A stretch of DNA of 64,000 nt from Geodermatophilus sp. DSM 45219 (GTDB lineage: Bacteria > Actinomycetota > Actinomycetes > Mycobacteriales > Geodermatophilaceae), in contig NZ_FNIQ01000005.1 of the NCBI RefSeq assembly GCF_900104025.1, positions 434,001 to 498,000 on the forward strand, in the 5' to 3' direction. Of the stretch, positions 19,796 to 49,891 are shown in pieces. The position numbers and the translations under genes are program-made. Every line of letters begins with the position of its first letter. The first letter of the stretch is position 1. Below the pieces are notes generated by a model. It was not told the DNA's origin. It worked only from the letters and a program-made list of their open reading frames with translations, and did not search any database.

Positions 19796-19807
19796 GTGTA
19801 CCGGTTG

Positions 19808-21821: not shown

Positions 21822-21833
21822 GTGTACCGGGTG

Positions 21834-21899: not shown

Positions 21900-23030
21900 T
21901 CAGCGCGGGGCCACAGCCTCTCTTCTGGTGGGGAGTCCGCAGAAACCGCCCAGCGAGGCAGACATCAGGTCCCCGGCTGCGGCGCGCGTGCGGTCCTCGG
22001 CCGTGGGCCACAGATGCGAGTAGACGCCGAGGGTGATCGTGGCCGAGGAGTGCCCGAGCGCCCGCTGCACCGTCACCACGTCGCACCCCGACGCGATCAG
22101 CCCGCTGGCGTAGAAGTGCCTCAGGTCGTGCAGCGTGTACCCGTCGAGGCCGGCCGCCTTGCGGACCTGCCGCCACTGGTGGCCCGCCGAGTTGCGGTTG
22201 AGTGGCACCCCGGCGGTGGAGAACAACCACTCCCCCGGCCGGACGCCGGTGGTCCGCACGTGCTGCGCGAGCAGGGCGATGAGTTCGGCCGGGACGTAGA
22301 CGATCCGCTCGGACCCGAACTTCGGTGCCACCGGCTCGGTCGTCGCGCTGCTCTCGCCCTGCAGCTGGCGACGGACGGAGATCGTGCGGCGCAGGAAGTC
22401 GACGTCCTCTATGCATAGCCCTGCCGCCTCCCCCAGGCGCAGCCCGGCGAAGGCGCACACCGCCACGAACGGCCGGAACCAGTCCGGGGTGACGCCGAGG
22501 GCGCGCCCCACCTCCTCGACGGTGGGGATGGTCATGGCCGCCGCGGCCTTGCGTCCCCTCGGCAGTGGGACGCCGGCCGACGGGTCCGCCTTGATGACCC
22601 GGTCGACGACGGCGGCCCGCAAGGCCATGTGGATGTAGTTGTAGCGGGTGCGGATGGTGCTGGGCGCGAGCCCGGTCCGACGCGTACCCGTCGGCTGGGA
22701 CATGGCCTTGACCCACTGCTGCACGTGGGAGGTCCGGATCTGGCGCATCGGCACGTCGGCGAAGGTCACCGAGTCGGCCGCCTGGCGCGCCGCGAGCGTC
22801 GTGCCGCGTTCCCACACCTGCCGGCCGGACCACTCCATGAACCATGTTCGGAAGGTGATCCTCCCCGCCGCGGGGTCGACGTAGTCGCCGGTGATGATCG
22901 CCGCGGTGACCTCGTCCAGCCACCGCTGCGCGTCGACCTTCCGCTTGAAGTGCCGGGCGTGCTCCTTGCCGTTCTCGTCGCGATACCGCGGCCGGTAGGT
23001 GCCGTCAGGTCGTCGTGCGATCGATGCCAC
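21900..23030 (-). CDS. int: Tyrosine recombinase/integrase
   Basis: This 376-residue phage-type integrase performs site-specific insertion and excision. The N-terminal arm-binding domain (DGTYRPRYRDENGKEHARHF, residues 9-28) is followed by a core-binding domain (~80-145). The catalytic domain has all key residues: R198 (GLRLGE), a probable Lys near 237, H301 and R304 (HDLRH), H327 (LGHSS) and nucleophile Y337 (YSHLW). It starts at GTG 23030 with AGGAGG upstream. Its 3' end points at the element's left end, and a remnant of its C-terminus is duplicated at 20532-20608. It probably acts on the yajQ site; an ancestral tRNA-Tyr specificity cannot be excluded. Confidence 0.93.
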   Translation of the reverse strand: MASIARRPDGTYRPRYRDENGKEHARHFKRKVDAQRWLDEVTAAIITGDYVDPAAGRITFRTWFMEWSGRQVWERGTTLAARQAADSVTFADVPMRQIRTSHVQQWVKAMSQPTGTRRTGLAPSTIRTRYNYIHMALRAAVVDRVIKADPSAGVPLPRGRKAAAAMTIPTVEEVGRALGVTPDWFRPFVAVCAFAGLRLGEAAGLCIEDVDFLRRTISVRRQLQGESSATTEPVAPKFGSERIVYVPAELIALLAQHVRTTGVRPGEWLFSTAGVPLNRNSAGHQWRQVRKAAGLDGYTLHDLRHFYASGLIASGCDVVTVQRALGHSSATITLGVYSHLWPTAEDRTRAAAGDLMSASLGGFCGLPTRREAVAPR

Positions 23031-23523: not shown

Positions 23524-23844
23524 GGCTGTCTCCGAAGGCTCAACGGGTCGGGGCGGCTGTCCACCCTTAGAAGGCGCCGTTTCGGGGCCGTTGCTGACAG
23601 CCCACAGCCAACTTCTTCGGTCGACCTCCTGTTTTCCTCCCGTCCCAGCTCCTGGGCGCCGTCGGAGCCGGGGGCGGGAGCGCTTGAGGCCACCGCCCGG
23701 CGCCTGGACCGGCGGTGATGGCGTCCAGGAGGCTGGCCGAGGCGATGACCTGCCCGAGGTCGACGGGTCCTGCAGTGGTCCTTCAGTTCTCCTGCAGTGC
23801 CCGCTCACCCGGCCGGCCGCGGCCCGGGTGGCGACCAACCCCGC
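23524..23844 (-). promoter_or_regulatory. traA-xis intergenic region with conserved upstream block
   Basis: No gene is seen in these 321 bp. Bases 23595-23613 (TGACAGCCCACAGCCAACT) are identical to 58208-58226 upstream of the second xis gene, and AAGGCGCC is shared 12-25 bp away on the gene-proximal side. Conservation where the rest has drifted suggests an operator or promoter element for xis. Confidence 0.55.
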
Positions 23845-26800: not shown

Positions 26801-27501
26801 GCGTAAGCGGCCAGCTCCGGTACATCTCCGGTCGCGTCCATCGTGTAGCCGTGCGCGGCCAGCGCCGCCCGGAACTGCGGATCGGTAGCCACCGCCGCGT
26901 GCCCGATGCCGTTGATCGCAGCGAGGAAGTCGCGCACCCCGACGGTGTGCAGCCCCCGCCACCGCCCGGCGGCGAACACCCGGGCGTTGATCTGCAGGTG
27001 CAGGTGCCGGTGCGGATCCCCGGCCCGGGAGGTGTGGTGCCGCACCGTCACCGCCTCCAGGCGCTCGACCGGCACCTGCACCTGCCCGCCGCGCGGGCCC
27101 ACCCGGGTGGTGGCGTGCTGCGCGAGCCAGCCGATGATCTGAACCGCGGCGCGGTCCTGGGCGGCGTCGTACGCGGCGGCGATGTCCGGGTGCAGGGCGG
27201 CGGCAAGCGACCAAGACTTCGGCCCGTTGACGATCACCTCGATGAAGCGCACCGCCCGGTCGTCGGTCCGCAGCCGACCGCGTGGCTCACCGGTGTTGGG
27301 GTCGGTGCCGGCCACCCACGCCTGGTAGCCGTCCCCGGCCAGCGGCGCCAGTTCCTGTACCCGGCCGCCGCTAATGGTGTAGCGGCGAGCGATCCCGGCG
27401 CCCTCGGTCAGGTAGTAGTCATCAGGCCGGCCCCGGTCGAACTCCACGTACTGGCGGGCCGCCGCCGGCGCGCCGGCGTAGACCTTCATTCCGCCGTGCA
27501 T
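23845..27501 (-). CDS. traA: MobF-type conjugative relaxase with helicase domain (TraA/TrwC-like)
   Basis: This ~1218-residue protein would nick DNA at an oriT, stay attached through a tyrosine, and unwind the strand for transfer. The N-terminal relaxase domain has the paired Tyr29-Tyr30 (DDYYLTEG) and the metal-binding histidines in HHTSRAGDPHRHLHLQINARV (H156, H164, H166, H168). The helicase domain has Walker A GAAGAGKT (residues 468-475) and Walker B LLVVDEVGML (~535-545). A ~300-residue coiled-coil-rich tail follows. Start ATG 27501 is preferred because GGGTGG lies 8 nt upstream; ATG 27489 is the alternative. No coupling protein or secretion system is visible nearby. Confidence 0.9.
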   Translation of the reverse strand: MHGGMKVYAGAPAAARQYVEFDRGRPDDYYLTEGAGIARRYTISGGRVQELAPLAGDGYQAWVAGTDPNTGEPRGRLRTDDRAVRFIEVIVNGPKSWSLAAALHPDIAAAYDAAQDRAAVQIIGWLAQHATTRVGPRGGQVQVPVERLEAVTVRHHTSRAGDPHRHLHLQINARVFAAGRWRGLHTVGVRDFLAAINGIGHAAVATDPQFRAALAAHGYTMDATGDVPELAAYAAAFSARAAQIGRNIDRYERQWMAAHPGQTPGPGLRRAWDARAWAEGRPDKVTPRPGTDLTARWVGELAALGYRDPGRPVDLTPAPVGGLDRNDAVERVLARLAAARSAWNAADVRGEVEQLLAAAGMVVDAGVRIELAEDLTARAVVRCVPLLNRDGGHAAVPEHIRAWTSQPVLDVEADLTDRLAARSTPAHADQRRDPEPELPDAVRGRLDAGQAAAVTALAGDRPLVVLEGAAGAGKTTTLAATRALLHANGRGLLVVTPTLKAAKVAFLEVGAHTGSAAGLAYQHGWRWSDHGTWTRLAFGEADPVTGVPFAGPREAARLGAGDLLVVDEVGMLDQDTARALLTVVDEAGARLALLGDRHQLAAVGRGGVLDLAAGQIDPAGHLTLDMVHRFTRTDDAGRTTRDTEYAELTLAMRTGDDPGAVFDTLVARGQIRLHPDPAALQEALAATAAAHHGGGEPVAVVVDTREQATELSDAIRERLVVDGRVDDTRVAVTGAGQRIGVGDRIATRRNDRNLGVANRDTWTAVAVDRHGSLAVIPAEVTPREAVSAGVTPAGTGQRLLPAGYVTSHVELAYASTAHGVQGDTVTAAHLVVGEHTGAAAAYVGMTRGRTANTAHLAATDLDQAREQWIAVFARDRADLGPAHAATQAAAEAARYATPRPLELVLAELQQAWTLEQRSLDRLAVLEPWCEDLRQAVALQAPHAGELARLEAEHRQAALAAQQATQRVQATGAAFTEDADRIREGLLAAWDDERGAARTAARVVLEGPGWWGLKRAPVARAEEQLTGWADRWRPHLPHLPTEPEQLARVANRFDDRPALWRVFDATAHRAAEAAHPEHAGLHAAAKAAVQAGEQAQAALTDAHRRHRERLAPLGPIAFAPDPAGSLAHFQGHVTNARDELADARARIADLRADPALLGRSPDRLTAARDAWRARYAAEQHQQRSAGTPNPAGSPVGALRPEPERDGPRPARDVAPSLGR

Positions 27502-34475: not shown

Positions 34476-35939
34476 TCACGCAGGGAGCGCGACGGCGAGC
34501 CACAGTCCCGCTCCGATGCCCAGGACCAGTGACGCCACGGCCGCGGAGTGCAGGACCGCGGTTGGGAGCAGCGCCGTGCGCTGGACGACTCCGACTGTGG
34601 GCCCCGGACCGGCCGGCGCGCCGTCGCCAGCCGCCGGTGGGGCCGCGGACACACCGACGGCCCCGGCGGTGATCCAGCGCAGGTAGTAGAAGAGACTGGC
34701 CACGGTGTTCACCGCCGCCAGCACCACCAGCCAGATCATCGCTCCGTCCCAGGCAGCCGAGAAGACGGCGAGCTTGCCGACGAACACGGCCGTGGGCGGC
34801 GTCCCCACCAGGCCCAGCAGGATGACGACAAGGCTCACCACCAGCCACGGCCGGCGGCCCACCGCCGCGGTCCAGTCGCTGATCGTCCGGGCTGCCGGTG
34901 CCGCGGCGACCGCGGCGAAGGCGCCGATGTTGGTGACGGCGTAGCCGGCGAGGTAGATCGTCAGCGCCGGGACGGCGAGTTCGGTGCGCGCGGCGACGGC
35001 GACGACCATGAACAGGTAGCCGACCTGGCTGACGGTCGAGTACGCCAGCAGCCGGAGCACCTCGGTCTGGCTGAACGCGGCGAGGTTGCCCAGCGTCATG
35101 CTGGCGGCCGCCAGCACCGCGACGAGGAGGGACGCGTCCACGGAGGCGGCGGCGAACGGCTCGGCGAGCAGGCGGAAGGCCGCGGCGACGGCCCCGAGCT
35201 TGGGGACGGTCGTGATGAAGGCGGCCATGGCCGGCGTCGTCCCTGCGGTGACGTCGGGGACCCAGAAGTGCACCGGTACCGCCCCGGCCTTGAAGGCGAC
35301 TCCGGCCAGCACACCGAGGACGCCGACCGCGGCGAGCGGTGCCGCCGCACCGGGAAGGGCCACGGCGAGGGTGGGATAGCCGGTCGTGCCCGTCGCGAGC
35401 ACCAGCGCGGTGACCCCGAGCATCAGTAGCACGCCGCTGAAGGCGCCCATCAGGTAGTACTTCAGCGCCGCCTCGGTCCCGCGGGCGTCCTTGGCGAAGC
35501 CGGCGAGGGCGTACAGCGGGAAGCTGGCGAGCAGGAACGCGGCCACGAGCAGCAGCAGGTCGCCGGCCGCGGCGAGCGCGACCGTCCCGAGGGCGGCCAG
35601 CAGCATGAGGACGTACGCCTCGGTCTCCCGCGGGTGACCGGCCACCGACGCCGAGGCGAGCAGGACGGCGACGGCGGTGGCCAGCGCCACGGTGATCCGG
35701 ACGACGCCCGTGGTGGTGTCGATCGTCCAGGTGCCCTCGAACACCGCCATGGCCGGGTCGGGCAGCGCGGTGGCCGCAGCGACCGCGCTGCCCAGACAGG
35801 CCAGGACAGCGACGGCGCGGACCCTGCCCTGGCGGCGCTGCGGCGTCCACAGCCCGAGGAGCAGGCCACCGACCGCACCCGCCAGGAGGATGAGCTCGGG
35901 CAACAGCGCCAGTGCCTCGGCGCCCTGGTCCTCGTTCAC
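34476..35939 (-). CDS. nuoN: Complex-I-like membrane subunit NuoN
   Basis: This 487-residue antiporter-like subunit has ~14 membrane segments. The family helices are present: AALKYYLMGAFSG, AFKAGAVPVHFWVPDVTAGTTPAMAAFI with its Lys, TEVLRLLAYSTVSQVGYLFM, and PPTAVFVGKLAVF with the TM12 Lys. The glutamate normally in TM5 (ELLSLPLY in typical NuoN) is absent: the helix reads FLLASFPLY around residues 135-143. It overlaps nuoM by 4 nt (GTGA). It is the last gene of the cluster. Confidence 0.88.
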   Translation of the reverse strand: MNEDQGAEALALLPELILLAGAVGGLLLGLWTPQRRQGRVRAVAVLACLGSAVAAATALPDPAMAVFEGTWTIDTTTGVVRITVALATAVAVLLASASVAGHPRETEAYVLMLLAALGTVALAAAGDLLLLVAAFLLASFPLYALAGFAKDARGTEAALKYYLMGAFSGVLLMLGVTALVLATGTTGYPTLAVALPGAAAPLAAVGVLGVLAGVAFKAGAVPVHFWVPDVTAGTTPAMAAFITTVPKLGAVAAAFRLLAEPFAAASVDASLLVAVLAAASMTLGNLAAFSQTEVLRLLAYSTVSQVGYLFMVVAVAARTELAVPALTIYLAGYAVTNIGAFAAVAAAPAARTISDWTAAVGRRPWLVVSLVVILLGLVGTPPTAVFVGKLAVFSAAWDGAMIWLVVLAAVNTVASLFYYLRWITAGAVGVSAAPPAAGDGAPAGPGPTVGVVQRTALLPTAVLHSAAVASLVLGIGAGLWLAVALPA

Positions 35940-37525
35940 CGGGCCACCAGCTGCACGACCGCGGCCGCGGCCGGCTCGACGACGTCGAGCAGGACGCGCG
36001 GGAAGAGCCCCAGCACCACCGCGAGCACCAGCAGCGGGACGATCGAGGCCAGCTCGTGTCCGCGCAGATCGCGCATCACGGTCGCCGTCCGCGGCCGGGT
36101 TGCCGTCGCCGTGCCGCCGCCCTCCGGCCGGGTGGACAGGCGATCTGCCCCGTCTTCGTCCAGCGGGACAACGGTGTCCCCCGTCAGCAGCCGCTGCAGG
36201 GCCAGGAGGAACAGCCCGGCGGTGACCAGGATCCCGACCACGGCGAGCACCGTGGCGACCGGCGCCGCCTGCAGGGCACCGGTGAAGACCTGGAACTCGG
36301 CGATGAAGCCGGAGAGCCCCGGCAGGCCCAGCGAGCCGAAGGCGGCGACGGCCAGGCTCGCCGCGAAGACCGGTGCCGGCCGGGCCAGGCCGCCCCAGCG
36401 GTCGAGGGTGTAGGTGTGACCGCGCGACCAGAGGACGCCGCTGAGCAGGAACAACGCGCCGGTCAGCAGGCCGTGGCTGACCATCTGGTAGACCGCCCCT
36501 ACCGTGGCGATGGTGCGCGCGCCGTCGTCGGCCGGGGTGACCAGGCCGGCCGCGCCGAGGCCGAGCAGCACGTAGCCCATGTGGTTGACCGAGGTGTAGG
36601 CGATCATCCGTTTGACGTCGGTCTGGGCCAGCGCGACGAAGGCCCCCCAGAGCACGCTGACCACCCCAGCGACGACGGCGACCATCGCCCAGCGCTGCCA
36701 GGCGTCCGGGAGGATCGGCATGGCGATCCGGACGAACCCGTAGGTGCCCAGCTTCAGCAGGATCCCGGCCAGCACGGCCGACCCGGCGGCCGGTGCGTCG
36801 GTGTGCGCGTCGGGCAGCCAGGTGTGGAACGGGAACAGCGGCGTCTTCACCGCCAACCCGAGGCCGATCGCCACCAGGACCAGCCCGCCGGCGACCGGGG
36901 AATTGGCGAGCGGCGGGTCGGCGGCCAGCGCCACCATGTCGAAGGTCCGCTGCTCGCCGCCGAGGAACAAGCCGATGAAGCCGACGAGCAGCGCCAGCGA
37001 CCCGACGAAGGTATAGAGGAAGAACTTCAGCGCGCTGCGGCGGGCGTTGCCGTGGCCCCAGCCGGCGATCACGAAGTACATCCCGACGATCGTCAGGTCG
37101 AAGAAGACGAAGAACAGGATCAGGTCGAGGGCGGCGAAGGTCCCCAGGGAGGCCGTCTGGAGGAACAGGAACAGCGCGGCGTAACTGCGCGGGCGGTGCG
37201 ACTCGCGCAGCGAGTAGACCGCGCAGGCGAGGAAGACCACCCCGGTCAGGGCGAGCAGCGGCAGCGAGAGGCCGTCGACCCCGATGTGGTAACCCGCGTC
37301 GACGGTCGGGATCCATTGCAGGTCGACCTCGTACGCCGGGCCGCCGACGACCCCGGCGGGGCTCGGCCCCGGGTCGAAGCGCCACCACATCCAGGCGACG
37401 AGCGCGAGGTCCACGGCGGAAGCCGCCACCCAGAGCACGATGGCCGCCCGGCCGCCGAGCCGGGGCGCGGCGAGCAGCACACCGGCGGCCACCAGCGGCA
37501 GAAAGATCACGACGGTCAGCAGCAC
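35936..37525 (-). CDS. nuoM: Complex-I-like membrane subunit NuoM
   Basis: This 529-residue antiporter-like subunit has VKTPLFPFHTWLPDAHTDAP (TM7 Lys), ILLKLGTYGFVRI (TM8 Lys), KRMIAYTSVNHMGY, and FIAEFQVF (TM12 Glu). The TM5 position that is Glu144 in Escherichia coli is Asp143 here (FFDLTIVGMYF). The start is GTG 37525. It lies 2 nt after nuoL. It probably forms a proton (or Na+) half-channel of the membrane arm. Confidence 0.9.
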   Translation of the reverse strand: MLLTVVIFLPLVAAGVLLAAPRLGGRAAIVLWVAASAVDLALVAWMWWRFDPGPSPAGVVGGPAYEVDLQWIPTVDAGYHIGVDGLSLPLLALTGVVFLACAVYSLRESHRPRSYAALFLFLQTASLGTFAALDLILFFVFFDLTIVGMYFVIAGWGHGNARRSALKFFLYTFVGSLALLVGFIGLFLGGEQRTFDMVALAADPPLANSPVAGGLVLVAIGLGLAVKTPLFPFHTWLPDAHTDAPAAGSAVLAGILLKLGTYGFVRIAMPILPDAWQRWAMVAVVAGVVSVLWGAFVALAQTDVKRMIAYTSVNHMGYVLLGLGAAGLVTPADDGARTIATVGAVYQMVSHGLLTGALFLLSGVLWSRGHTYTLDRWGGLARPAPVFAASLAVAAFGSLGLPGLSGFIAEFQVFTGALQAAPVATVLAVVGILVTAGLFLLALQRLLTGDTVVPLDEDGADRLSTRPEGGGTATATRPRTATVMRDLRGHELASIVPLLVLAVVLGLFPRVLLDVVEPAAAAVVQLVAR

Positions 37526-37527
37526 GG

Positions 37528-39411
37528 CTACCTCACCACGAGCAGCAGGACGAGCAGGACACCCAGGCCGGCCGCGGCCTGGGCGTAGTACTGGTGCAGC
37601 AGCCCGGTCTGCGGGCGACGAGCGGCCGCACCGGCACGGCGCAGGGCCTCCGCCGTGGCACGGACGGCGCCGTCCACCACGCTCCCGTCGACGCGCGCGG
37701 CCGCGGCTGCCGTCCGCCGGGCTGCAGCGCCGACGCCCTCGACCGCCCGGTCCAGAACCCGGTCGTCCAGCGTCGCGAGCACCCGGGCCAGCGCCATCGC
37801 CGGTCGCGGGGACAGCAGCCGCCCGAGGCCCACCCAGCCCGCCAGCGGGCTGCGCTCCAGCGCACCGGCGACCTCCGGCAGGCGGTGCAGGAGAGCCACG
37901 GTCCCGGTCAGGGCCCCCGCGGCGAGCCCGCCGGAGAGCACCAGCTCCCCCACGGTCGGGGACGACTCCCCCACCACCCCGAGCAGCGCCTTCAGCGGTT
38001 CGGCCACCGCCGGCACGGCGAGGACGCCGAGGCCGGCCGCGAACACCGCCAGCACCGCGGCCACCCCGGTGCTCGCCGGTGGGATGCGGCGAGTGCCCCG
38101 CTCCTCCTCGTCGAAGAACTCCTCCCCCGCCGGACGGGCGAGGACGACGGCCAGCACCCGGCCCGCGTAGACGGCGGAGAGCACCGCGGCCGCCAGCCCG
38201 ACGACCCGCAGCGCGGCCCCGTCGACGCCGGCCAGGACCTCGTCCTTGGTCGCCCACAGCGACAACGGCGGGACCCCGGCCAGGGCCAGGGCGGCGACGG
38301 TCGCCGCCGCGCCCAGGCCACGGTGGCGCCGCGCGGCGCCACGCAGCCCGGCCAGCTGCTTGGTCCCGTAGGCGGTCAGCCAGGCACCGGCCGCCACGAA
38401 CAGCGCGGCCTTCACCGCGGCGTGCGCCACCAGCTGGGCGGTGCCACCGGAGACCGCGCCCACCCCCGCGGCCAGCACGACGAAACCGATCTGCGCGGCG
38501 GTGCTGGCGGCCAGCAGCTGCTTGAGGTCCCGCTGGGCGACGGCCACCGCACCCAGCACGAGGGCGGTCAGGGCACCGGCCCAGGCCGCCGCCGCAGCCG
38601 CCCACCCGGTCGCCGCCAGCAGCGGCTGGACCCGCAGCAGGAGGTAGCCGCCGGCCGCGACCATGGTGGCGGAGTGCAGCAGCGCGCTGACCGGGCTGGG
38701 CCCCTGCATCGCCCCGGAGAGCCAGGCCGACAACGGCAGCTGGGCCGACTTGCCCAGCGCCGCGACGAGCAGGCCCGCCGCGGCCAGGTCGCGCCAGCCA
38801 CCGTCGGCCGCCGGCAGGTCGGCGAGGACGAGGCCTCCGGTTCCGGCGAGCGCGGCCCCGGCGGCGACGTAGAGGCCCAGGTCGGCGGCGCGGGTGGTGA
38901 GGAAGGCCGTGGTGCCCGCAGACAGCCTGCCCGGTTCCTGCCAGCGGTACCCGATCAGCGCGTAGGAGGTCGCCCCCATCAGCTCCCAGGCGACCAGGAG
39001 AACCGGCATCGTCGCGGCGGTGACCGTCGTCAGCATGGCTGCAATGAACAGCAGGAAGTAGCCGAAGAACCGGGCGCGCGCGGCGTCGGCGGGCAGGTCC
39101 GCGGCGGCGAAGACCGTGGTCAGCAGGCCGACGGCCGCGACGAGCACCACGAGGACCGCGGACAGCCCGTCCACCGACAACCGCAGGTCCCCGCCCGGCA
39201 CGACGCCGAGGAATGGCACGGACAGCTGCGGGCGGTCCCCGGCGGCGACCGCGGCCAGCGCGAAGGCGGCCGTGGTGGTGAGCACGGCGAGCGGTCCGGC
39301 GATCCGGTCGGCGCGCCGTCCGGTGAGCAGCAGCGCCACACCTGCCAGGGCCGGCAGGCCGACCAGCACGGCCAGGACCGCGGCTCCCCCGGCCGTCGAT
39401 GTGCCGCTCAT
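37528..39411 (-). CDS. nuoL: Complex-I-like membrane subunit NuoL
   Basis: This 627-residue distal antiporter-like subunit has the key ionisable residues: VAWELMGATSYALIGYRW (TM5 Glu), LGKSAQLPLSAWLSGAMQGPSPVSALLHSATMV (TM7 Lys and His), AHAAVKAALFVAAG, and PPLSLWATKDEVL (TM12 Lys). The C-terminal region (residues ~530-600) is amphipathic, as expected of the lateral helix. It overlaps nuoK by 4 nt. Confidence 0.92.
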   Translation of the reverse strand: MSGTSTAGGAAVLAVLVGLPALAGVALLLTGRRADRIAGPLAVLTTTAAFALAAVAAGDRPQLSVPFLGVVPGGDLRLSVDGLSAVLVVLVAAVGLLTTVFAAADLPADAARARFFGYFLLFIAAMLTTVTAATMPVLLVAWELMGATSYALIGYRWQEPGRLSAGTTAFLTTRAADLGLYVAAGAALAGTGGLVLADLPAADGGWRDLAAAGLLVAALGKSAQLPLSAWLSGAMQGPSPVSALLHSATMVAAGGYLLLRVQPLLAATGWAAAAAAWAGALTALVLGAVAVAQRDLKQLLAASTAAQIGFVVLAAGVGAVSGGTAQLVAHAAVKAALFVAAGAWLTAYGTKQLAGLRGAARRHRGLGAAATVAALALAGVPPLSLWATKDEVLAGVDGAALRVVGLAAAVLSAVYAGRVLAVVLARPAGEEFFDEEERGTRRIPPASTGVAAVLAVFAAGLGVLAVPAVAEPLKALLGVVGESSPTVGELVLSGGLAAGALTGTVALLHRLPEVAGALERSPLAGWVGLGRLLSPRPAMALARVLATLDDRVLDRAVEGVGAAARRTAAAAARVDGSVVDGAVRATAEALRRAGAAARRPQTGLLHQYYAQAAAGLGVLLVLLLVVR

Positions 39412-39725
39412 CCCTGCAGCTCCGTGGCCATGTCGACCATGTCCACCTGCCGCGCCCGGTAGATCGCGATGGTCGCCGCGAAGCCCATCGCCATCTCCAC
39501 CGCCATCACGACCAGCGCCACGACGACGACCATCTGTGCGTCGGGCGCCTGGGGAGCGAGGAAGTACCAGGCGGCGGCCCCGCCGAGCAGCACCCCGTTG
39601 AGGGCGAGCTCGAAGCCCATCATGATCATCACGATCGACTGCTGGGACAGGGCGCCGAACACCCCCACGCCGACCAGGGCGGCGGCGACGGTCAGCACGA
39701 TCTGCAGGACCAGTTCGGCGGTCAT
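39408..39725 (-). CDS. nuoK: Complex-I-like membrane subunit NuoK
   Basis: This 105-residue three-helix subunit includes GALSQQSIVMIMMGFELALNGVLL (the TM2 Glu) and VVVVALVVMAVEMAMGFA (the TM3 Glu), so both conserved glutamates of the proton path are kept. The ATG 39725 start overlaps the nuoJ stop. Confidence 0.93.
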   Translation of the reverse strand: MTAELVLQIVLTVAAALVGVGVFGALSQQSIVMIMMGFELALNGVLLGGAAAWYFLAPQAPDAQMVVVVALVVMAVEMAMGFAATIAIYRARQVDMVDMATELQG

Positions 39726-40303
39726 CGCGGCAGCCCTCCGGGAACGGGGTCGTCCGGGCGGGCGGCGTCCAGCTCGGCACCGAACCGGTCGTAGCGCCCC
39801 CGGGCGGTGGCCAGGACGGTGCCGGCGATGATGGTCGCGAACAGCGCGACGCCGATCACCAGCATCACGAGCATGTGGCTGCCCATGATCGCCTCGCCCA
39901 GCTGACGCGTGCTGTCGGCGGGCACCGCGCCGTTCCGGGTCGGCCAGTCCATCGTCCAGATCCCCACGGTCAGCAGGACGAAGGCCCCGGCACCCAGGAC
40001 GGCCGATCCCCGCGCGTTGTGCACCATCGTCATCGGCATCAGACCGGCCGGGTTCATCATGAACATGATCATGAAGACGGCCATCAGGGCCATCTCGATG
40101 GTCATCATCAGCGCCGTCACGAACGCCAGGTACGGCAGCTGCAGCGCCACCAGGATCCCGGCGACGGCCAGGAACGACGTCAGCAGCGCGAACGTGGCCC
40201 GGGCCATCGAGTCGACGACGAACACCGCGATCCCGGCGGCCACCGAGAGCCCGCCGAGGGCGATCACCGCCGCGACGGCCCACGCAGGCAGGTCGGTCAG
40301 CAC
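39722..40303 (-). CDS. nuoJ: Complex-I-like membrane subunit NuoJ
   Basis: This 193-residue protein has five membrane helices. Helix 3 reads LAFVTALMMTIEMALMAVFMIMFM. Typical NuoJ has VYVGAVMVLFLFVVMML in this place, so this version is Met-rich and divergent. It starts at GTG 40303 with GGAGGGAG upstream. Confidence 0.82.
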   Translation of the reverse strand: MLTDLPAWAVAAVIALGGLSVAAGIAVFVVDSMARATFALLTSFLAVAGILVALQLPYLAFVTALMMTIEMALMAVFMIMFMMNPAGLMPMTMVHNARGSAVLGAGAFVLLTVGIWTMDWPTRNGAVPADSTRQLGEAIMGSHMLVMLVIGVALFATIIAGTVLATARGRYDRFGAELDAARPDDPVPGGLPR

Positions 40304-40334
40304 AGTTCTCCCTCCATGGGTGGGGCGTCGTCCG

Positions 40335-41291
40335 TCAGCCGTAGAAGCCGGACAGCACGAGGACCGAGACCAGCAGGGCCTGGAGCAGCGTCGCCGGGAT
40401 GAGCACCATCCAGCCGATCTCGACGAAGCGGTCGGGCCGGATCACCGGCACCCGGTGCCCCACCACGACGAGCAGGACGACCACCCCGACGGTCTTGACC
40501 AGCTGCCAGAGCGGGCCCGGCAGCCACGGGCCGGCGTCCCCGCCGAGGAACAGCGCGGTCGCCATGGCCGCCGCCGCGCCCAGGAAGACCGCCCGGCCGG
40601 CGTCCACGAGCAGCCGGTCGACGCCGGACAGCTCCGAGGTGACGCCGCCGGCGATGTCGGCTCCGGCGGGCGAGGCGAAGGGGCCCCAGAAGGCGAACGC
40701 AGCGGCGCTGGCGAGGAACACGACGAAGGCGACCGGCATGGTGACGACGAACCAGAGGTCGGCCTGCGCGGCCACGACGTTCGTCGTCCGCAGCGACTGT
40801 GCGCCCACCCCCACGGTGATGAGCGCGAACATGAGCGGGAGCTCGTAGGACAGTCCCTGGATGAGAAAGCGGTAGCCGCCGGTCAGCGCGTGGACCGCGT
40901 TGGGCCCCCATCCGACCAGCCACACCGCCGCCCACAGGACGGCCTCCATGGCGTTGAACCAGACGAGGTCCGCGCTGCTGGAGAGGAGGGTGCGCCCGCC
41001 GATCGGCACGACGGCCAGGGAGAGCAACGCCAGGACGGGGACCGCCGCACAGCCGAGCCGCCACAGGAGGGAGTCCGGCGCCAGCGTGGTCCGCCGCTGC
41101 TCGAGCAGCAGCCGGGTCCCGGACTGCAGCGTGCCGACGGCGGCCCGCGCGCCGCTCCCGGTGAGGACTGCTCGGTCCGTCGCGGCGACGAGGAAGCCGA
41201 GGAGGAGGCCGACGGCGGTGACGGTCAGGACGGCGGACCAGGTGCCCCAGGCCGCGGCCGACGTCCCCACGGGGATCTCCATCTCAGACAC
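40335..41291 (-). CDS. nuoH: Complex-I-like membrane subunit NuoH, divergent
   Basis: This ~318-residue protein has eight membrane helices. GLSYELPLMFALITVGVGAQSL matches the NuoH SYE helix, and RVPVIRPDRFVEIGWMVLIP matches the C-terminal RYDQLMxLGWK region. The quinone-facing segments are changed: the usual FAExNRxPFDLxEAExELV block reads SPAGADIAGGVTSELSGV. This suits a protein whose peripheral partner is altered. GTG 41291 overlaps the preceding gene by 8 nt; ATG 41282 is the alternative start. Confidence 0.8.
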   Translation of the reverse strand: MSEMEIPVGTSAAAWGTWSAVLTVTAVGLLLGFLVAATDRAVLTGSGARAAVGTLQSGTRLLLEQRRTTLAPDSLLWRLGCAAVPVLALLSLAVVPIGGRTLLSSSADLVWFNAMEAVLWAAVWLVGWGPNAVHALTGGYRFLIQGLSYELPLMFALITVGVGAQSLRTTNVVAAQADLWFVVTMPVAFVVFLASAAAFAFWGPFASPAGADIAGGVTSELSGVDRLLVDAGRAVFLGAAAAMATALFLGGDAGPWLPGPLWQLVKTVGVVVLLVVVGHRVPVIRPDRFVEIGWMVLIPATLLQALLVSVLVLSGFYG

Positions 41292-42477
41292 GGGCGCTCA
41301 GCGGCATCCGACGAGCCGCCGGGTGGGACAGCGGCAGGCTGGCCACGACGAGCCGAGCTGCGGCGAGCTCCGCGCCGTCGAGCGCTCCGGCCACGCGCTC
41401 CAAGGACAGGCCGGGCGGCACGTCGGCCGGTGGCTCCGGGGCGGAGGCCAGCTCGCACCACCACCGGACCCGGTCGAACACATCGCCGCGGAAGGGGCCT
41501 GCCTCGGCGTCCCCGACGACGCCGATCCCGCGGAGGGACCAGGCGAGCGTCCGTGAGCGGCGGACCCGACGCGCAAGTCGTGCGGCGCGCCGGTGCCCCG
41601 CCTCGACGTCAGCCGGGTCGGCCGCACAGAGTCGGTCGCGTGCGCGGCGAGCGTCCCGCGCAGCGGTCGGCCAGCCGGCTACCTCGAGAGACCGGCTGAG
41701 GTGGTCGAGCGCCAGGAGCCGGGCATCACCGCTGTCCGACGCGGGCCTCTCATCCCCGGTGTCGGCATCGACCCAGGTGAGTCGCACGCGGCTGAGGACG
41801 TCGCCCTGCAGTTGACCGTGCAGGAGGAGGCCGGGGGGCCAGCCCGCGAGCACCGGTCCCAGCGAGACCTGCAGCGCGTCCAGCCGGAGTCCGTCCCGGT
41901 CAGGAGTCGTGCCGGCCATCGGCAACCCGGCGACGTCCATGCCCCCGTGACCGCTGTGGTCCATCTCGCCATGACCGCCGTGGCCCATCGCCCCGTGATC
42001 CATGCCCGCGTGATCCATGGCGTGGCCATCGGCATGAGGGACGCCTTCACCGTGGCCGTCGGCGTCCGTTCCCCCGTGTTCCATGGCCATGTGGTCCCCG
42101 CCTCCGCGCTGTTCGAGGAGGTCGCCGGGACTGGGGCGCTCGTCGTCGCCGGGCTGACCTCGCCCGGCTGCCTCTCCCAGGGCCTCGACCGCCGCATCGA
42201 GCGCCGAGGACACCTCGTCGCCCGTGCTGATGCTGGCCCTGTGCCGCGGTCCAGGGACCTGTGACCAGACGACGTCGACAGCCTGCGCGAGGTCCTCGCC
42301 GGGCGTCCCGACGACCAGGAGCAGGTCAGCCCCAGCCGGGGACAGGGCCAGCGGCCACCCGCGGCGGTCGAGTTCGGCCTCGACCGTCCATCGGAGCGCG
42401 GTGGATCCGGGCACATCCACCACCAGAACGCACGGCCGGGCGACCGCCCAGCGCCGCACCCGCTCGATCAGGTCCAC
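41284..42477 (-). CDS. Degenerate NuoB/NuoD-like fusion with His/Met-rich linker
   Basis: This ~397-residue soluble protein takes the place of nuoB-nuoC-nuoD. Residues ~45-80 (LSPAGADLLLVVGTPGEDL, then AQAVDVVWSQVPGPR) resemble the NuoB segment SPRQADLMIVAGT...QMPEP, but the four Fe-S cysteines are absent. Residues ~198-230 (LDALQVSLGPVLAGWPPGLLL) resemble the NuoD opening. Between them, residues 129-190 are packed with His, Met and Gly (MDHAGMDHGAMGHGGHGEMD), a likely metal-binding linker. It starts at GTG 42477, overlapping nuoA by 10 nt. Homology is by eye and needs profile confirmation; another scaffold role is possible. Confidence 0.6.
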   Translation of the reverse strand: MDLIERVRRWAVARPCVLVVDVPGSTALRWTVEAELDRRGWPLALSPAGADLLLVVGTPGEDLAQAVDVVWSQVPGPRHRASISTGDEVSSALDAAVEALGEAAGRGQPGDDERPSPGDLLEQRGGGDHMAMEHGGTDADGHGEGVPHADGHAMDHAGMDHGAMGHGGHGEMDHSGHGGMDVAGLPMAGTTPDRDGLRLDALQVSLGPVLAGWPPGLLLHGQLQGDVLSRVRLTWVDADTGDERPASDSGDARLLALDHLSRSLEVAGWPTAARDARRARDRLCAADPADVEAGHRRAARLARRVRRSRTLAWSLRGIGVVGDAEAGPFRGDVFDRVRWWCELASAPEPPADVPPGLSLERVAGALDGAELAAARLVVASLPLSHPAARRMPLSARV

Positions 42478-42809
42478 CGCAGCGCTCCCTCGCGCCAGAC
42501 GTAGACGACCCCGACCAGGAGGACGGCGAGGAAGCCGAACATCTCCACGACGGCACTGGGCCCCATCTCCGCGACGACGACCGCCCACGGGTACATGAAG
42601 ATCATCTCCATGTCGAAGGCGAGGAAGAGGATCGTCACGGCATACCAGCGGGCGTGGTAGCGCGAGACCGCGTGCTGCTGCGGGAGCATGCCGGACTCGA
42701 AGGGCAGAACCTGCGCCGGCTGCCAGAGCCCGCCCATGAGCCGGGAAGCGCCGTAGACGGTCCCCACGATCGCGCAGACAAGCGCCAGCAGAGCCAGGAC
42801 AGCGGTCAC
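42468..42809 (-). CDS. nuoA: Complex-I-like membrane subunit NuoA
   Basis: This 113-residue three-helix protein has LPFESGMLPQQHAVSRYHARWYAV, the NuoA loop in which the usual ECG is ESG. FLAFDMEMIFMYPWAV follows, with the conserved Asp/Glu pair. It is the first gene of the A-X-H-J-K-L-M-N run and starts at GTG 42809. It is divergent from the gene at 42848, with only 38 bp between starts. Confidence 0.9.
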   Translation of the reverse strand: MTAVLALLALVCAIVGTVYGASRLMGGLWQPAQVLPFESGMLPQQHAVSRYHARWYAVTILFLAFDMEMIFMYPWAVVVAEMGPSAVVEMFGFLAVLLVGVVYVWREGALRWT

Positions 42810-42847: not shown

Positions 42848-43312
42848 ATGGAGATGGGCGAGACGCACAGCGTGGAGCTGTCGACCGCCGACCTGATGAC
42901 CATCCGGGCTGGCCTCAACGCCTACCTCAGGGCCTTCGCCCGGCACCGGGAGCTCGATGGCGGCGCCACGCATCCCGATGAGGAGTGGCAGCAGGCGCAG
43001 CGGCAGGTCGGTGAGTTGATCTGGCGGCTGGAGGAGGCGGGAGTCTCGCCCGACACGATGATCGTGCACAGCGAGGAAGCCGTGGAGCCCCGGCATCAGG
43101 ACCCCTGGACCCCGGCGCCGACCGACTGCCCGGACTCCCGGCGCCGGTCGACCGCGGGACCCCCATCGGCCCGGTCGGAGGCCAGCGGCCTGAAGGAGCG
43201 CAACCGCAGGCTGTTGGACACGACGAACACCGAGGAGACCGCCATCGCCGCGCCGGCGAGCATCGGGTTGAGCAGCCCGGCAGCGGCGATCGGCAGGGCG
43301 GCCACGTTGTAG
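42848..43312 (+). CDS. Small hypothetical helical protein (3' part antisense to copA)
   Basis: The first ~85 residues ([30 protein letters not shown], then a Trp/Gln helix and [16 protein letters not shown]) look like a genuine alpha-helical protein. The frame then runs 217 bp antisense into the copA 3' end, where composition becomes Ser/Arg/Pro-rich. Either the protein really extends or a stop was lost. No domain is recognised. It stands alone between the nuo-like and copper operons. Confidence 0.5.
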
Positions 43313-45453
43313 GCGAAGGCCCAGAACAGGTTGCCCTTGATCGTGCCGAGCGTCCTCCGTGACAGGCGGATGGCGTCGGCGGCCGCCCGCAGGTCGCCAC
43401 GGACCAAGGTGAGGTCGCTGGCCTCGATCGCCACGTCGGTGCCGGTGCCCATGGCCAGGCCCAGGTCCGCCTGAGCGAGGGCGGCGGCGTCGTTCACCCC
43501 GTCGCCGACCATGGCCACGACCTTGCCCTGGGCCTGCAGCCGCTTGACCACGTCGACCTTGTCGGCCGGCAGCACCTCGGCGATCACCTCGTCGATGCCC
43601 ACCTGGGCGGCCACCGAGTGGGCGACGGTCTCGTTGTCGCCGGTGAGCAGGACCGGGGTGAGCCCGAGGTCGCGCAGCTGACGGACGGCTTCCGCGGAGG
43701 TCTCCTTGACGGCGTCGGCCACGACCAGGACGCCGCGGGCGGCGCCGTCCCAGCCGACGGCCACGGCCGTCCGGCCGTCGGCCTCGGCGGCGGTCTTGGC
43801 CTGCGTGAGGTCGGCCGGCAGGTGCTGCGCCCAGTCGGCCAGCAGCCGGGTGCGCCCGACCAGCACCGCGTGCCCGTCGACGACGCCCTGCACGCCGAGG
43901 CCCTCGACGTTGGTGAACCCCTCCACGGCCGGCAGGTCGCCGACCTGCTCGGCGGCGCCGGTCGCGATCGCCCGGGCGATCGGGTGCTCGGAGGCGTCCT
44001 CCAGGGCGCCGGCCAACCGCAGCACCTGCTCGCGGTCCTCGCCGGCAGCGGGGACGACGTCGAGCAGGGTCATGCGGCCGGTGGTGACGGTGCCGGTCTT
44101 GTCGAGGACGACGGTGTCCACGCGGCGGGTGTTCTCCAGCACCTCGGGGCCCTTGATCAGGATGCCGAGCTGGGCGCCGCGGCCGGTCCCGACCAGGAGC
44201 GCGGTCGGCGTGGCCAGGCCCAGCGCGCAGGGGCAGGCGATGATCAGGACAGCGACCGCGGCCGTGAACGCCGCGCCGGCGCCCGCACCGTTGCCCAGCC
44301 AGAAGCCCAGGGTGGCGGCGGCCAGGGCGATCACGATCGGGACGAAGACGCCCGAGACGCGGTCCGCGAGGCGCTGGACCTCGGCCTTGCCGTTCTGGGC
44401 GTCCTCGACCAGCCGCGCCATCTGCGCCAGCTGGGTGTCCGAACCGATGCGGGTCGCGCGCACGACCAGCCGGCCACCGGCGTTGACGGTGGCGCCGACG
44501 ACGGCGTCCTCCGGCCCGACCTCCACCGGCACCGACTCGCCGGTGAGCATCGACGCGTCGACCGCCGAGGAGCCCTCGACGATCACGCCGTCGGTGGCGA
44601 TCTTCTCCCCCGGCCGGACGACGAACAGGTCACCGACGGCCAACTGCTCGACCGGAACCCGCTGCTCGCGGCCCTCGCGCAGCACCGACACCTCCTTGGC
44701 GCCCAGCTCCAGCAGGGCGCGCAGCGCCGCACCGGCCCGCCGCTTGGCGCGGACCTCGAAGTAGCGGCCGGCCAGGATGAAGGTGGTGATGACGACGGCG
44801 GCCTCGAGGTAGATGTTCCCGCTGCCGTCGGTTCGGGAGATGGTGAGCTCGAACGGGTGGGTCATCCCCGGGACCCCGGCTGTGCCGAGGAACAGCGCGT
44901 ACAGCGACCAGCCGAAGGCGGCCAGCGTGCCCATCGAGATGAGCGTGTCCATCGTGGCGGCGCCGTGCCGCAGGTTGGTCCAGGCCGCCTTGTGGAAGGG
45001 GAACGCCGCCCAGACCACGACCGGTGCGGCGAGGGTGAGCGAGAGCCACTGCCAGTAGGTGAACTGCAGCGACGAGACCATGGCCAGCAGCACCACCGGC
45101 GCGCTGAGCAACGCGGAGACGATCACCCGCTGGCGCAGGCTGCGGACGGCGGCGTCCTCGTCGGAGGAAACCGACGGGTCCGCCGCGTCGGCCTTCGCCG
45201 GCTCGGGCAGCCGAGCGGTGTAGCCGGCCTTCTCCACCGCCGCCACCAGGTCGTCGGGGGCGGTGTCGCCGATGTAGGTGACCCTGGCCTTCTCGGTGGC
45301 GTAGTTGACCGTCGCGGTGACGCCGTCGAGCTTGTTGAGCCGCTTCTCGATCCGTGCCGCGCAGGACGCGCAGGTCATGCCTCCGATGGTCAGCTCGATG
45401 TGCTCGGCGCCGGCCGGAGCCGGTGTGGTCGTGCTCTTCGGTGCGGAGCTCAT
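43096..45453 (-). CDS. copA: Copper-exporting P1B-type ATPase
   Basis: This 785-residue heavy-metal ATPase pumps Cu(I) out of the cytosol. The N-terminal HMA domain ([14 protein letters not shown], residues ~24-37) is followed by eight membrane segments. It has the CPC motif ([13 protein letters not shown]), TGES, phosphorylation site [16 protein letters not shown] and [10 protein letters not shown]. Start ATG 45453 has GAGGAGGAG upstream. It is the last gene of csoR-copZ-secreted protein-copA. A ~35-residue polar tail follows the last helix. Confidence 0.96.
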
Positions 45454-46539: not shown

Positions 46540-46749
46540 CTATCGGCCGGCCACCTGGTAGCCGGCCTCCTCGACGGCGGCCTGGATGGCGCCCTCGTCG
46601 ACCGGCTCGGCGCTGGTCACGGTCAGGCCGCCGGAGGCCAGGTCGACGTCGACGTCGGTGACGCCGGGCACCTGGCTGACCTCCTCGGTCACCGAGTTCA
46701 CGCAGTGGCCGCAGGTCATGCCGACGACGGTGTAGGTGGCGGTGCTCAT
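46540..46749 (-). CDS. copZ: Copper chaperone CopZ (HMA domain)
   Basis: This 69-residue single HMA domain has VVGMTCGHCVNSVTEEVSQVPGV (metal-binding CGHC at residues 13-16) and the GYQVAGR ending. It delivers Cu(I) to CopA. Start ATG 46749 has GAGGGAG upstream. It sits between csoR and the secreted protein. Confidence 0.95.
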   Translation of the reverse strand: MSTATYTVVGMTCGHCVNSVTEEVSQVPGVTDVDVDLASGGLTVTSAEPVDEGAIQAAVEEAGYQVAGR

Positions 46750-46844: not shown

Positions 46845-47150
46845 TCACGAGCGGACGAGCCGGGCGATCGCCTCGGAGGCCTCGCGGACCTTCTCGTCGG
46901 CCTCCGGACCGCCGGCGGCGGCAGCCTGGACGACGCAGTGGCTCATGTGCTCCTCGAGCAGCCCCAGCGCCACCGACTGCAGCGCCTTCGTCATGGCCGA
47001 GACCTGCGTGAGGATGTCGATGCAGTACTGCTCCTCCTCGACCATCCGCTGCAGTCCGCGGGCCTGGCCCTCGATGCGGCGCAGCCGCTTGAGGTAGTCG
47101 TCCTTGCGGTGGATGTAGCCGTGCTGGCCGGATCCCTGGGTGCTCTCCAC
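46845..47150 (-). CDS. csoR: Copper-sensing transcriptional repressor CsoR
   Basis: This 101-residue four-helix repressor has YLKRLRRIEGQARGLQRMVEEEQYCIDILTQVSA with the sensing Cys, then HMSHC providing the His and second Cys of the Cu(I) site. It releases DNA when copper binds. Start GTG 47150 has GGAGCGGG upstream. Two candidate operators lie 36-75 bp upstream. Confidence 0.95.
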   Translation of the reverse strand: MESTQGSGQHGYIHRKDDYLKRLRRIEGQARGLQRMVEEEQYCIDILTQVSAMTKALQSVALGLLEEHMSHCVVQAAAAGGPEADEKVREASEAIARLVRS

Positions 47151-47627: not shown

Positions 47628-48035
47628 ATGAGCGTTGCTGGTCAGATGCTGGAGACGTACCCGAAGGACCTCGGCGGGGTCGACCGCCAGAAGCTGCAGG
47701 AGTGCCTCGAGGCCTGCTTTGAGTGCGCCCAGGCGTGTACCGCGTGCGCGGACGCCTGCCTGAGCGAGGACATGGTCGCCGAGCTGACCAAGTGCATCAG
47801 GACCAACCTCGATTGTGCCGACGTCTGTGACACGACCGGGCGGGTGCTCTCCCGGCACACCGGCTACGACGCGAACCTGACCCGCGCGGTCCTGGAGGCG
47901 TGCGCCGCCGCGTGCAAGGCCTGCGGGGACGAGTGCAGCCAGCACGCCGAGATGCACGAGCACTGCCGCGTCTGCGCCGAGGCCTGCCGGCGGTGTGAGA
48001 CCGCCTGCCGCGACCTCATCGCCTCCCTGAGCTGA
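47628..48035 (+). CDS. csp: Cys-rich copper storage protein (Csp3-like, DUF326)
   Basis: This 135-residue four-helix bundle has 18 cysteines arranged mostly as C-x3-C and C-x2-C along the helices (CLEACFECAQACTACADAC near residue 25). That matches the count and spacing of cytosolic Csp3 proteins, which store many Cu(I) ions. No signal peptide is present, so it is cytosolic. Start ATG 47628 has AGAGAGGAAG upstream. It is a single-gene unit next to the csoR operon. Confidence 0.9.
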   Translation: MSVAGQMLETYPKDLGGVDRQKLQECLEACFECAQACTACADACLSEDMVAELTKCIRTNLDCADVCDTTGRVLSRHTGYDANLTRAVLEACAAACKACGDECSQHAEMHEHCRVCAEACRRCETACRDLIASLS

Positions 48036-49222: not shown

Positions 49223-49891
49223 TCAGCCGCCGAGCTCGGCGAGCAGCGTCTCCATCTCCTCGATCTCCGCAGCCTGCGAGTCAGCGATCTCCTCGGCCAG
49301 TGCGACGGCGTCCGCGTTGCTGCCCTCGGCGATCTCCGTCTGGGCCATCTCCACGGCACCGCGGTGGTGCACGATCATCATCTCGAGCCACATCCGGTCG
49401 AACTCGGCTCCGGAGGCGGCCTCCAGGGCGGCCATGTCCTCCTCGGACATGCCCTCCATGTCCATGCCGCCCATGTCCATGGACCCGTGGTCCATGGAGC
49501 CCATGCTGTCGCTGCCCTCCTCGGGCAGCGGCTCGCCCCACTCCTGCAGCCAGCCGGTCATCGTCTCGATCTCCGGCTGCTGCGCGGCTTCGATCCGGTT
49601 CGCCAGATCGAGGACGCGAGGGTCCTCGGCGCGGCCATCGGCCATCCGCGCCATCTCGAGGGCGCCACGGTGGTGCGGGATCATGCCCTGGACGAAGGTG
49701 ACGTCGGCGTTGTTGAACTGTGCCGACTCGTCGGAGCTCTCGGCGCCGGCGCTGCTCTCGGCACTGGTGCTGCTGTCCATCCCCTCCATGCCGGCCATGT
49801 CGTCGCTCCCGTCGGAACAGCCGGCCAGGACGATGGTGCCGGCGATGATGCCGCCGGTCAGACGGGCGAGTCGAACGTTGGTGCGGGTCAC
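49223..49891 (-). CDS. DUF305 lipoprotein with Met/His-rich linker
   Basis: This 222-residue protein has lipobox TIVLAGC and two DUF305 halves with FVQGMIPHHRGALEMAR (~67-83) and MWLEMMIVHHRGAVEMAQ (~167-184). Between them lies a linker dense in Met, Asp and His (GSMDHGSMDMGGMDMEGM). Paired HH plus Met residues suggest copper binding outside the cell. It starts at GTG 49891 and lies 84 bp after the DUF6153 gene on the same strand. Confidence 0.85.
   Translation of the reverse strand: MTRTNVRLARLTGGIIAGTIVLAGCSDGSDDMAGMEGMDSSTSAESSAGAESSDESAQFNNADVTFVQGMIPHHRGALEMARMADGRAEDPRVLDLANRIEAAQQPEIETMTGWLQEWGEPLPEEGSDSMGSMDHGSMDMGGMDMEGMSEEDMAALEAASGAEFDRMWLEMMIVHHRGAVEMAQTEIAEGSNADAVALAEEIADSQAAEIEEMETLLAELGG

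Follow-up and report, generated by a model that had tools for sequence, protein, structure and literature searches.

Partial nuo operons in which nuoA is followed by a gene for a hypothetical protein and then by nuoH, J, K, L, M and N have been described in Streptomyces, Salinispora and Kocuria, with a proposed role in osmoadaptation; the passages that treat them hold the operon to be horizontally acquired and record copies in non-marine strains too, one of them from copper-rich mine fluid (PMC6676996). The set was called a 'partial nuoAHJKLMN' operon and read as a marine or osmotic proton pump in PMC3314556, and the marine reading of it recurs in the corresponding passages of PMC8622039 and PMC6002675. 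A survey of Nuo sets covers plasmid-borne ones as well, and 'metal' does not occur in its main text (PMC12361115), nor 'nuo' in the main text of PMC4921485. Here we report on a cluster of this kind, nuoA-X-nuoHJKLMN, at positions 34476-42809 on the minus strand of a 64,000-nucleotide stretch of Geodermatophilus sp. DSM 45219 (C10:434001-498000), the whole of which is referred to as the window. A first-pass annotation of the window had found such a set inside a metal-resistance element striking; the set is not unprecedented, being in print with a hypothetical gene after nuoA (PMC6676996, PMC3314556), and our equation of the two families is drawn from gene order, not from sequences. The partial-operon gene order was thus already known, and the passages on it do not analyse X, methionines or a linkage to copper. 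Nothing was found in the open-licence literature, beyond which other papers may exist, on these three subjects for the nuoAHJKLMN cluster, and they are what is new relative to the literature found.

In respiratory complex I (NDH-1; NuoA to NuoN), chemistry at the quinone site of NuoB, NuoD and NuoH moves charge along the E-channel (NuoH, A, J and K) to the pumping subunits NuoN, M and L. The membrane modules of complex I have been put to other chemistry in energy-converting hydrogenases, MBS, Mrp and DabAB, the last of which couples ion flux to a non-redox step. Cu(I) is transported through methionine ladders in CusA and CTR1, and the heavy metal binding domain (HMBD) occurs beside copper transport proteins. 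We propose, at close to an even chance, that the window cluster is a redox-dead descendant of complex I in which the ion-motive force would move Cu(I) or another soft metal. The anatomy of the cluster is well supported; its function is what we infer from it.

All eight frames of the cluster are open. Pfam names nuoA, H, J, K, L, M and N in order and gives no match for gene X between A and H, and the genes are tightly packed, with overlaps of 10 bases (A/X), 4 bases (J/K) and 4 bases (M/N) and gaps of 1 base (X/H) and 31 bases (H/J). Since the genes are contiguous, nuoC, E, F, G and I have no space among them, and no NuoE, F or G was seen between the cluster genes of relatives or in the annotated plasmid regions. 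To this extent the first-pass annotation, which had described eight packed genes for seven membrane subunits with nuoC, E, F, G and I missing, was right. A canonical nuo operon of 14 genes in nuoA-N order lies about 30 kb away on the same contig (nuoD at C10:520045; nuoN cut by the end of L010, the sequence that holds the operon); its nuoD was named by Pfam and its other genes by position, size and BLAST, and it holds the single NuoD (PF00346) match of the whole source genome. The cluster subunits are 26-38% identical to their canonical counterparts where BLAST aligns them, NuoJ giving no match. In a NuoM tree the 52 cluster rows fall on one side of a branch (100/99) and 18 references on the other, so that cluster NuoM appears as one clade separate from reference complex I, although the program flags some long reference branches. 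The tree and the 26-38% identity rule out that the cluster is a broken piece of the neighbouring canonical operon.

A single gene, X, does stand where nuoB and nuoD would be expected, as had been noted, but the odd protein that it encodes is not unrelated to them: on profile comparison it is a fused relic of both. The N-terminal part (about 100 residues), searched against PDB with a profile of 23 X proteins (hmmsearch), gave 43 matches at E<=10, the best at 2e-7, of which 42 are of the NuoB/PSST/NdhK/MbhJ/HycG type, two of these chains being assigned by us from unhelpful names, and the remaining one is a de novo design; the strongest match falls on the residues that separate the second cluster cysteine of NuoB from the third. 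Aligned to NuoB with hhalign, the same part scores 95.2% (E 2.7e-8; cross-controls 0.1-0.3%). None of the N2 [4Fe-4S] ligand cysteines is conserved in the 53 X N-parts aligned; the one Cys column (25 of 53) falls in a V-V-C-G stretch aligned to I-V-A-G of NuoB.

For the C-terminal part, the last ~215 residues, likeness to NuoD is reached through intermediate relatives from deep Actinomycetota. Window-type C-parts match those of the Rubrobacter type (hhalign 98.8%, 1e-16), and five Rubrobacter-type C-parts match NuoD over nearly the whole length (99.4%, 5e-22; cross-controls 0.1-0.3%). Nine deep actinobacterial loci among L119-L134 match canonical NuoD by BLAST at 24-36% local identity, and PF00346 is found in 7 of 8 deep X proteins scanned (best 1e-18), the eighth giving a weak NuoB match. 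Taken alone, the window-type C-part gave a Pfam NuoD match in 2 of 23 members (best E 0.18), and against PDB only XPA and other chance matches, nothing usable. The PDB search, the Pfam matches in deep X and the hhalign scores together rule out that X is unrelated to NuoB and NuoD. The NuoD loop GPQHPSTHG is changed in X to GPxxPxxPAG (GPLFPGLPAG in deep, GPVLPxWPAG in window-type proteins), its histidines are absent from the alignment of both types, and in five Rubrobacter-type X the MDYLSP motif has Pro or Leu in place of its Tyr. These are residues that we take to hold the quinone head group in complex I, and by this assignment they are gone from X. An AlphaFold model of X is confident except in the linker (mean predicted local distance difference test score, pLDDT, 80.3), and with it the best 50 of 504 Foldseek matches all come from complex I, NDH-1, MBH, MBS or FHL entries. 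With neither conserved cluster cysteines nor quinone-loop histidines in X, the earlier suggestion of an unknown electron donor docking on the complex was not borne out.

In place of this chemistry, X carries a linker of 0-255 residues between its halves, mostly rich in His, Asp and Glu, often with Met, and with repeats such as MDHGGM. At least 3 His were counted in the linkers of 43 of the 47 X proteins measured, and in window-type X such a linker would bind metal. HMBD was found by Pfam in 5 of 8 deep X proteins scanned (E 1e-13 to 2e-27), two of which hold it in duplicate, and in the alphaproteobacterial plasmid relatives that were opened the gene between nuoA and nuoH is annotated as a 'heavy metal-binding domain-containing protein'. 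The His/Met tandem repeats vary widely in length among draft genomes and several contigs end inside them (L017/L018, L034/L044, L037/L048), which points to a linker length that is probably changing fast.

The residues of the ion path are kept. All 52 aligned cluster members have NuoL E129, K207, H232, K320 and K375, NuoM K227, K258 and E410, NuoN K247 and K389, and NuoK E39 and E77, by what we take to be the E. coli equivalents; NuoN K217 and E107 are present in 47 of 52, and the helix-5 Glu of NuoM is Asp in 48 of 52. The first-pass annotation had noted ionisable residues in NuoL, and the alignment extends this to NuoM and NuoN and supports its view that ion translocation is plausible without the usual electron input. 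Selection on the cluster is purifying: the median pairwise ratio of nonsynonymous to synonymous substitution (dN/dS) is 0.23 for nuoA, 0.36 for X, 0.20 for nuoH, 0.19 for J, 0.18 for K, 0.22 for L, 0.21 for M and 0.21 for N (11 Geodermatophilaceae loci, 52-55 pairs a gene, the pairs not being independent).

Methionine was compared column by column in alignments of each membrane subunit, with 47-52 cluster members (Geodermatophilaceae, other Actinomycetes, four deep Actinomycetota and two alphaproteobacterial plasmid copies) against 18 reference operons, 14 with and 4 without nuoE, F and G. Columns with at least 90% Met number 14 in cluster NuoJ against 1 in the references, which show Met in 0 of 18 sequences at 12 of these 14 columns, in 1 of 18 at one and in 18 of 18 at one. 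The corresponding counts are 5 against 2 in NuoK and 3 against 1 in NuoA, with no excess in NuoH (1 against 1), L (2 against 6), M (3 against 2) or N (1 against 2). Met makes up 9.9% of cluster NuoJ (6.9-12.9) and 2.2% of reference NuoJ (1.4-2.8). Among columns conserved at 95% or more, Met accounts for 19 of 74 in cluster A/J/K and 5 of 323 in H/L/M/N (Fisher 3e-11, an effect size and not a probability, as neither columns nor rows are independent), and for 2 of 48 in reference A/J/K. In NuoJ, M66, M67, M71, M74, M78, M82 and M83 lie in a modelled helix, 57-83, and M67, M71, M74, M78 and M82 share one face of it, within about 80 degrees on a helical wheel and near E70; the model is of modest confidence (mean pLDDT 69.9; about 80 in this helix). 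The new methionines of NuoA flank D66 and E68, and those of NuoK flank E39 and E77, presumably the E-channel carboxylates of complex I. NuoM H241 and M316 are found in 52 of 52 members. The NuoJ pattern extends to L062, L065 and L066, loci that lack a linker and, in the stretch seen, show no copper neighbours. We suggest that the methionines of A, J and K would coordinate metal along a transmembrane path.

In the window the genes upstream of the cluster read, in minus-strand order, CsoR, HMA chaperone, a 321-aa gene and a copper-type ATPase, followed by nuoA-X-HJKLMN. A copper set was defined from the window and from cluster neighbours on plasmids (Cu-ATPase, HMA chaperone, CsoR, multicopper oxidase, DUF305, DUF326, BNR, CopY, M56 and a few others; the first four are the core genes) and counted around the cluster, the genomes compared being kin. 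A copper-set gene lies within 10 kb of 10 of 14 Geodermatophilaceae X loci and of 0 of 14 canonical nuo loci in the same genomes, one canonical flank being cut at 7.8 kb, and a core gene lies within 10 kb of 8 of the 14; the metal-resistance setting remarked on at first pass finds support. Copper-set genes were also present near 14 of 15 further Geodermatophilaceae loci; in this wider survey the named loci can be followed for about 8.6 kb on the upstream side of nuoA but for only about 2 kb beyond nuoN. Outside the family they occur at 3 of 18 named loci (Jiangella, and two Streptomyces with DUF305 alone), at 6 of 6 Rubrobacter-type loci (L128-L133) and at 5 of the remaining 8 deep loci, which span 20 kb (L119-L124, L126, L127). 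Cu-ATPase, multicopper oxidase, CopB or CusA genes are present in 5 of 6 actinobacterial plasmid regions fetched (not in L073) and in 3 of 3 with full alphaproteobacterial clusters; the regions opened were 6 of 16 window-type matches and 3 of 12 long Rubrobacter-type matches.

Set beside the known systems, the cluster shares with complex I, including partial forms without NuoEFG, the seven membrane subunits, their order and the ion-path residues, and X would descend from its NuoB and NuoD. It differs in having no NuoC, E, F, G or I, in an X with neither conserved cluster Cys nor quinone-loop His, in the putative metal-binding linker, in the methionines of A, J and K and in its separate clade. 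A donor module, the N2 cysteines and the quinone histidine were looked for and none was found, so the cluster is not complex I itself. With the energy-converting hydrogenases, MBS, Mrp and DabAB it would have in common the use of complex I membrane modules for other chemistry, and Foldseek matches of X include MBH, MBS and FHL entries; it has no NiFe or sulfur site and it keeps the full seven-subunit arm together with the NuoB-NuoD relic. CusA and CTR1 would resemble it in the spacing of Met through the membrane; they differ from it in fold and energy system.

The loss of the chemistry, the retention of the ion side, a metal element at the old site of chemistry and methionines in the E-channel lead us to suggest that ion flow would drive a soft metal, most likely Cu(I). 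X would collect cytosolic metal with its His/Met linker or, in deep relatives, with HMBD, and, as homology indicates, would dock on NuoH and NuoA in the place of NuoB and NuoD, with no N2 cluster or quinone ligands. The metal might then travel along the NuoA, J and K methionines that flank the kept E-channel carboxylates, and this movement would be coupled, in the reverse of complex I, to the flow of protons (or Na+) through NuoL, M and N. Export, as in resistance, is favoured over import because of the company of resistance genes. The identity of the metal, its binding, its direction and the coupling are all features that we infer. An early suggestion that energy could run the other way, with ion flux driving another process, is the direction that the analysis favours. 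The wider claim, that a whole branch of the complex I superfamily on plasmids and islands in two phyla would be an ion-motive-force-driven pump for Cu(I) or soft metals, working through a methionine ladder in the former E-channel with a copper-binding NuoB-NuoD relic in place of the quinone module, is one that we hold possible but doubtful.

How complex I couples its chemistry to distant pumping is a long-standing question. A natural relative in which coupling and pumping parts are kept, redox is lost and new ligands sit in the coupling region would offer a direct test of whether a process other than electron transfer can be powered by ion flow or can itself power it. If the copper reading is true, it would add a new copper-handling route on mobile DNA and would call for a new assignment of genes that at present carry the annotation NADH dehydrogenase and are taken for marine proton pumps.

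Several observations weigh against metal transport. The linker has no His in 4 of 47 X proteins, namely L055 (27 residues) and L062, L065 and L066 (0-1 residues), so a His linker is not essential. The direct hhalign comparison of the window-type C-part with NuoD is weak (5.5% probability), and the best Foldseek match of X stands at E 4e-3, none of the best 50 of 504 reaching 0.001. The conserved methionines could also be structural. Four of the 14 Geodermatophilaceae loci have no copper-set gene within 10 kb on either side and two more have only DUF/BNR companions; 15 of the 18 named loci outside the family have none in the stretch visible there, and no neighbour common to more than four of the groups compared accounts for the copies without copper genes. 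Where copper neighbours are present, they are confounded by shared islands and close kinship.

A rival reading is an H+ or Na+ pump or antiporter for osmotic, marine or pH homeostasis, with no metal involved and X as a structural cap or regulator. The kept ion-path residues agree with it, most copies outside Geodermatophilaceae have no copper neighbours in the stretch seen, an Mrp-like operon, so called by eye on gene size and order, adjoins the copy in genome G023, and this is the role published for the operon in Salinispora, Streptomyces and Kocuria in the passages cited (PMC3314556, PMC8622039, PMC6676996, PMC6002675). It has, however, no visible energy source, and it leaves unexplained the confinement of Met to A, J and K, the HMBD and His-rich linkers of X and the copper islands, while PMC6676996 itself, in its passages on the operon, has non-marine copies and one from copper-rich mine fluid; we regard it as unlikely. 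Somewhat less likely again is a metal-gated proton channel, in which copper on X would open or close the ion flow, as a sensor or a valve on the proton-motive force under copper stress, with no transport of copper. The linker of X and the kept proton path would fit such a gate, but gating requires no methionine ladder running across NuoJ, K and A, and an uncontrolled leak would presumably be costly. An enzyme that is still redox-active, with copper or an unknown donor reducing or oxidising quinone at the old site and so pumping ions, is improbable: the frame of NuoH, A, J and K is kept and a copper redox couple could conceivably stand in for N2, but the conserved Fe-S cysteines, the quinone-loop His of NuoD and, in five Rubrobacter-type X, the MDYLSP Tyr are missing. 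A decayed, functionless duplicate of complex I, as the short, fast-evolving X and a few fragmented-looking plasmid copies (L075, L137) might suggest, is highly improbable, since eight open genes in the window, dN/dS medians of 0.18-0.36 where relaxed selection would give values near 1, and a gene order fixed across two phyla count strongly against decay in the window family.

Within the genus 7 of 26 genomes carry X, and within the family 47 of 112 (E<=0.001), two of which, G071 and G072 (about 43 residues, E near 4e-4), probably match NuoB instead. A count of 191 of 396 genomes in the phylum was set aside as a measure of prevalence, as most matches listed cover only residues ~43-82 and are probably canonical NuoB. 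The 48 named X loci come from Geodermatophilus, Blastococcus, Modestobacter, Jiangella, Cryobacterium, Leifsonia, Streptomyces, Actinomadura, Nocardiopsis, Actinopolyspora and Nonomuraea, and include four contigs of metagenome-assembled genomes and one labelled Bacillus, a label that is unverified. On plasmids, X occurs in 16 of 72,556 records, with hosts in Mycobacterium, Rhodococcus, Gordonia, Arthrobacter, Curtobacterium, Pseudonocardia, Streptomyces, Ornithinimicrobium and Pseudarthrobacter. With a Rubrobacter-type query, among the best 20 of 164 plasmid records, 6 match over at least 80% (Rubrobacter, two Sulfitobacter, two Paracoccus, Roseovarius), 6 more over 63-64% (Rubrobacter, Sulfitobacter, Thioclava, Nitratireductor, Paracoccus) and the remaining 8 are short. 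The order A-X-H-J-K-L-M-N is constant in relatives of both phyla wherever the genes could be located; those that escaped location are nuoL in L059, both nuoL and X in the L131 gene call, and several in the fragmented L075. A separate NuoD gene is present in 44 of 45 X-bearing family genomes and in 18 of 18 tested from outside the family, and the cluster would therefore not be expected to be required for respiration. The cluster and the canonical nuo locus share a contig in 8 of 14 genomes and are more than 0.6 Mb apart in all 8, which disposes of the idea that such clusters always adjoin an intact nuo operon.

The mobile context proposed for the cluster is supported by a tyrosine integrase and a TrwC relaxase (Table 1). 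A stretch containing the 3' end of a tRNA-Tyr gene (19807-19889) is repeated at 95% by the integrase gene (~21796-21856; the first 61 of 151 bases searched), which suggests an attachment site; a third copy was not detected elsewhere in the genome. Between direct repeats at 23337-23618 and 57959-58231 (77-82%, 34.6 kb apart) lie the relaxase, the copper genes and the nuo-like cluster. The DUF326, BNR-repeat, DUF305 (two), DUF6153 and CopY/M56 genes partly recur together at copper islands.

Table 1. Features of the window, in window coordinates.
Feature	Position	Strand	Basis and remarks
Tyrosine integrase of carrying element	21900..23030	-	Pfam PF00589
TrwC relaxase of carrying element	23845..27489	-	Pfam PF08751
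nuoN-like antiporter subunit	34476..35939	-	TIGR01770 1e-85, below its cut-off; E107, K217, K247, K389 kept
nuoM-like antiporter subunit	35936..37525	-	TIGR01972 above cut-off; K227, K258, E410 kept; D143 replaces Glu
nuoL-like antiporter subunit	37528..39369	-	Pfam PF00361 4e-45 (longer frame); start codon picked by composition; E129, K207, H232, K320, K375 kept
nuoK-like	39408..39725	-	Pfam PF00420; E39, E77 kept; M33, M35, M74, M78 new
nuoJ-like	39722..40303	-	Pfam PF00499; invariant Met in modelled helix 57-83, then M91, M93, H95
nuoH-like	40335..41282	-	Pfam PF00146 2e-38
X, 397 aa	41284..42477	-	Predicted NuoB relic ~1-100; His/Met-rich linker ~110-180; predicted NuoD relic ~182-397
nuoA-like	42468..42809	-	Pfam PF00507 6e-28; D66, E68 kept; M69, M72, H52 invariant in cluster
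Copper-type P1B ATPase, directly upstream of cluster	43096..45378	-	Pfam E1-E2_ATPase + HMA; metal specificity predicted
Unnamed 321-aa gene between Cu-ATPase and HMA chaperone	45526-46491	-	No Pfam or NCBIfam match
HMA copper-chaperone-like protein	46540..46749	-	Pfam PF00403
CsoR-type metal-sensitive repressor	46845..47150	-	Pfam PF02583
Cys-rich DUF326 protein, recurrent copper-island companion	47646..48035	+	Pfam PF03860
BNR-repeat, copper-island companion	48113-48859
DUF305, recurrent copper-island companion	49223..49891	-	Pfam PF03713
DUF305 (second), copper-island companion	49976-50362
DUF6153, copper-island companion	51193-51885
CopY/M56, copper-island companions	52351-53615

Around the nuoA start in the window, a search for promoter- or terminator-like sites gave none, and upstream of it there is no palindrome with 8-base arms. 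A palindrome near ATCCGTNNGATNGTNCGGAT (16 fixed bases) stands upstream of nuoA at 19 of 25 Geodermatophilaceae loci (3 mismatches or fewer; e.g. L014, L015, L026, L032, L046) and at 0 of 24 others, and is absent in the window; the motif was read off some of the same loci as were counted. In G091, G103 and G105 an ArsR-like gene, named by eye, lies just upstream of nuoA. The Xanthobacter plasmid pXAUT01 (L137:11615-12306) carries what looks like a relic, with only nuoA and a 110-aa start of X annotated, beside a gene called bilirubin oxidase. In G023 (L016:3100-9009) the cluster runs divergently from a set of genes that in size and order resembles a complete Mrp antiporter operon.

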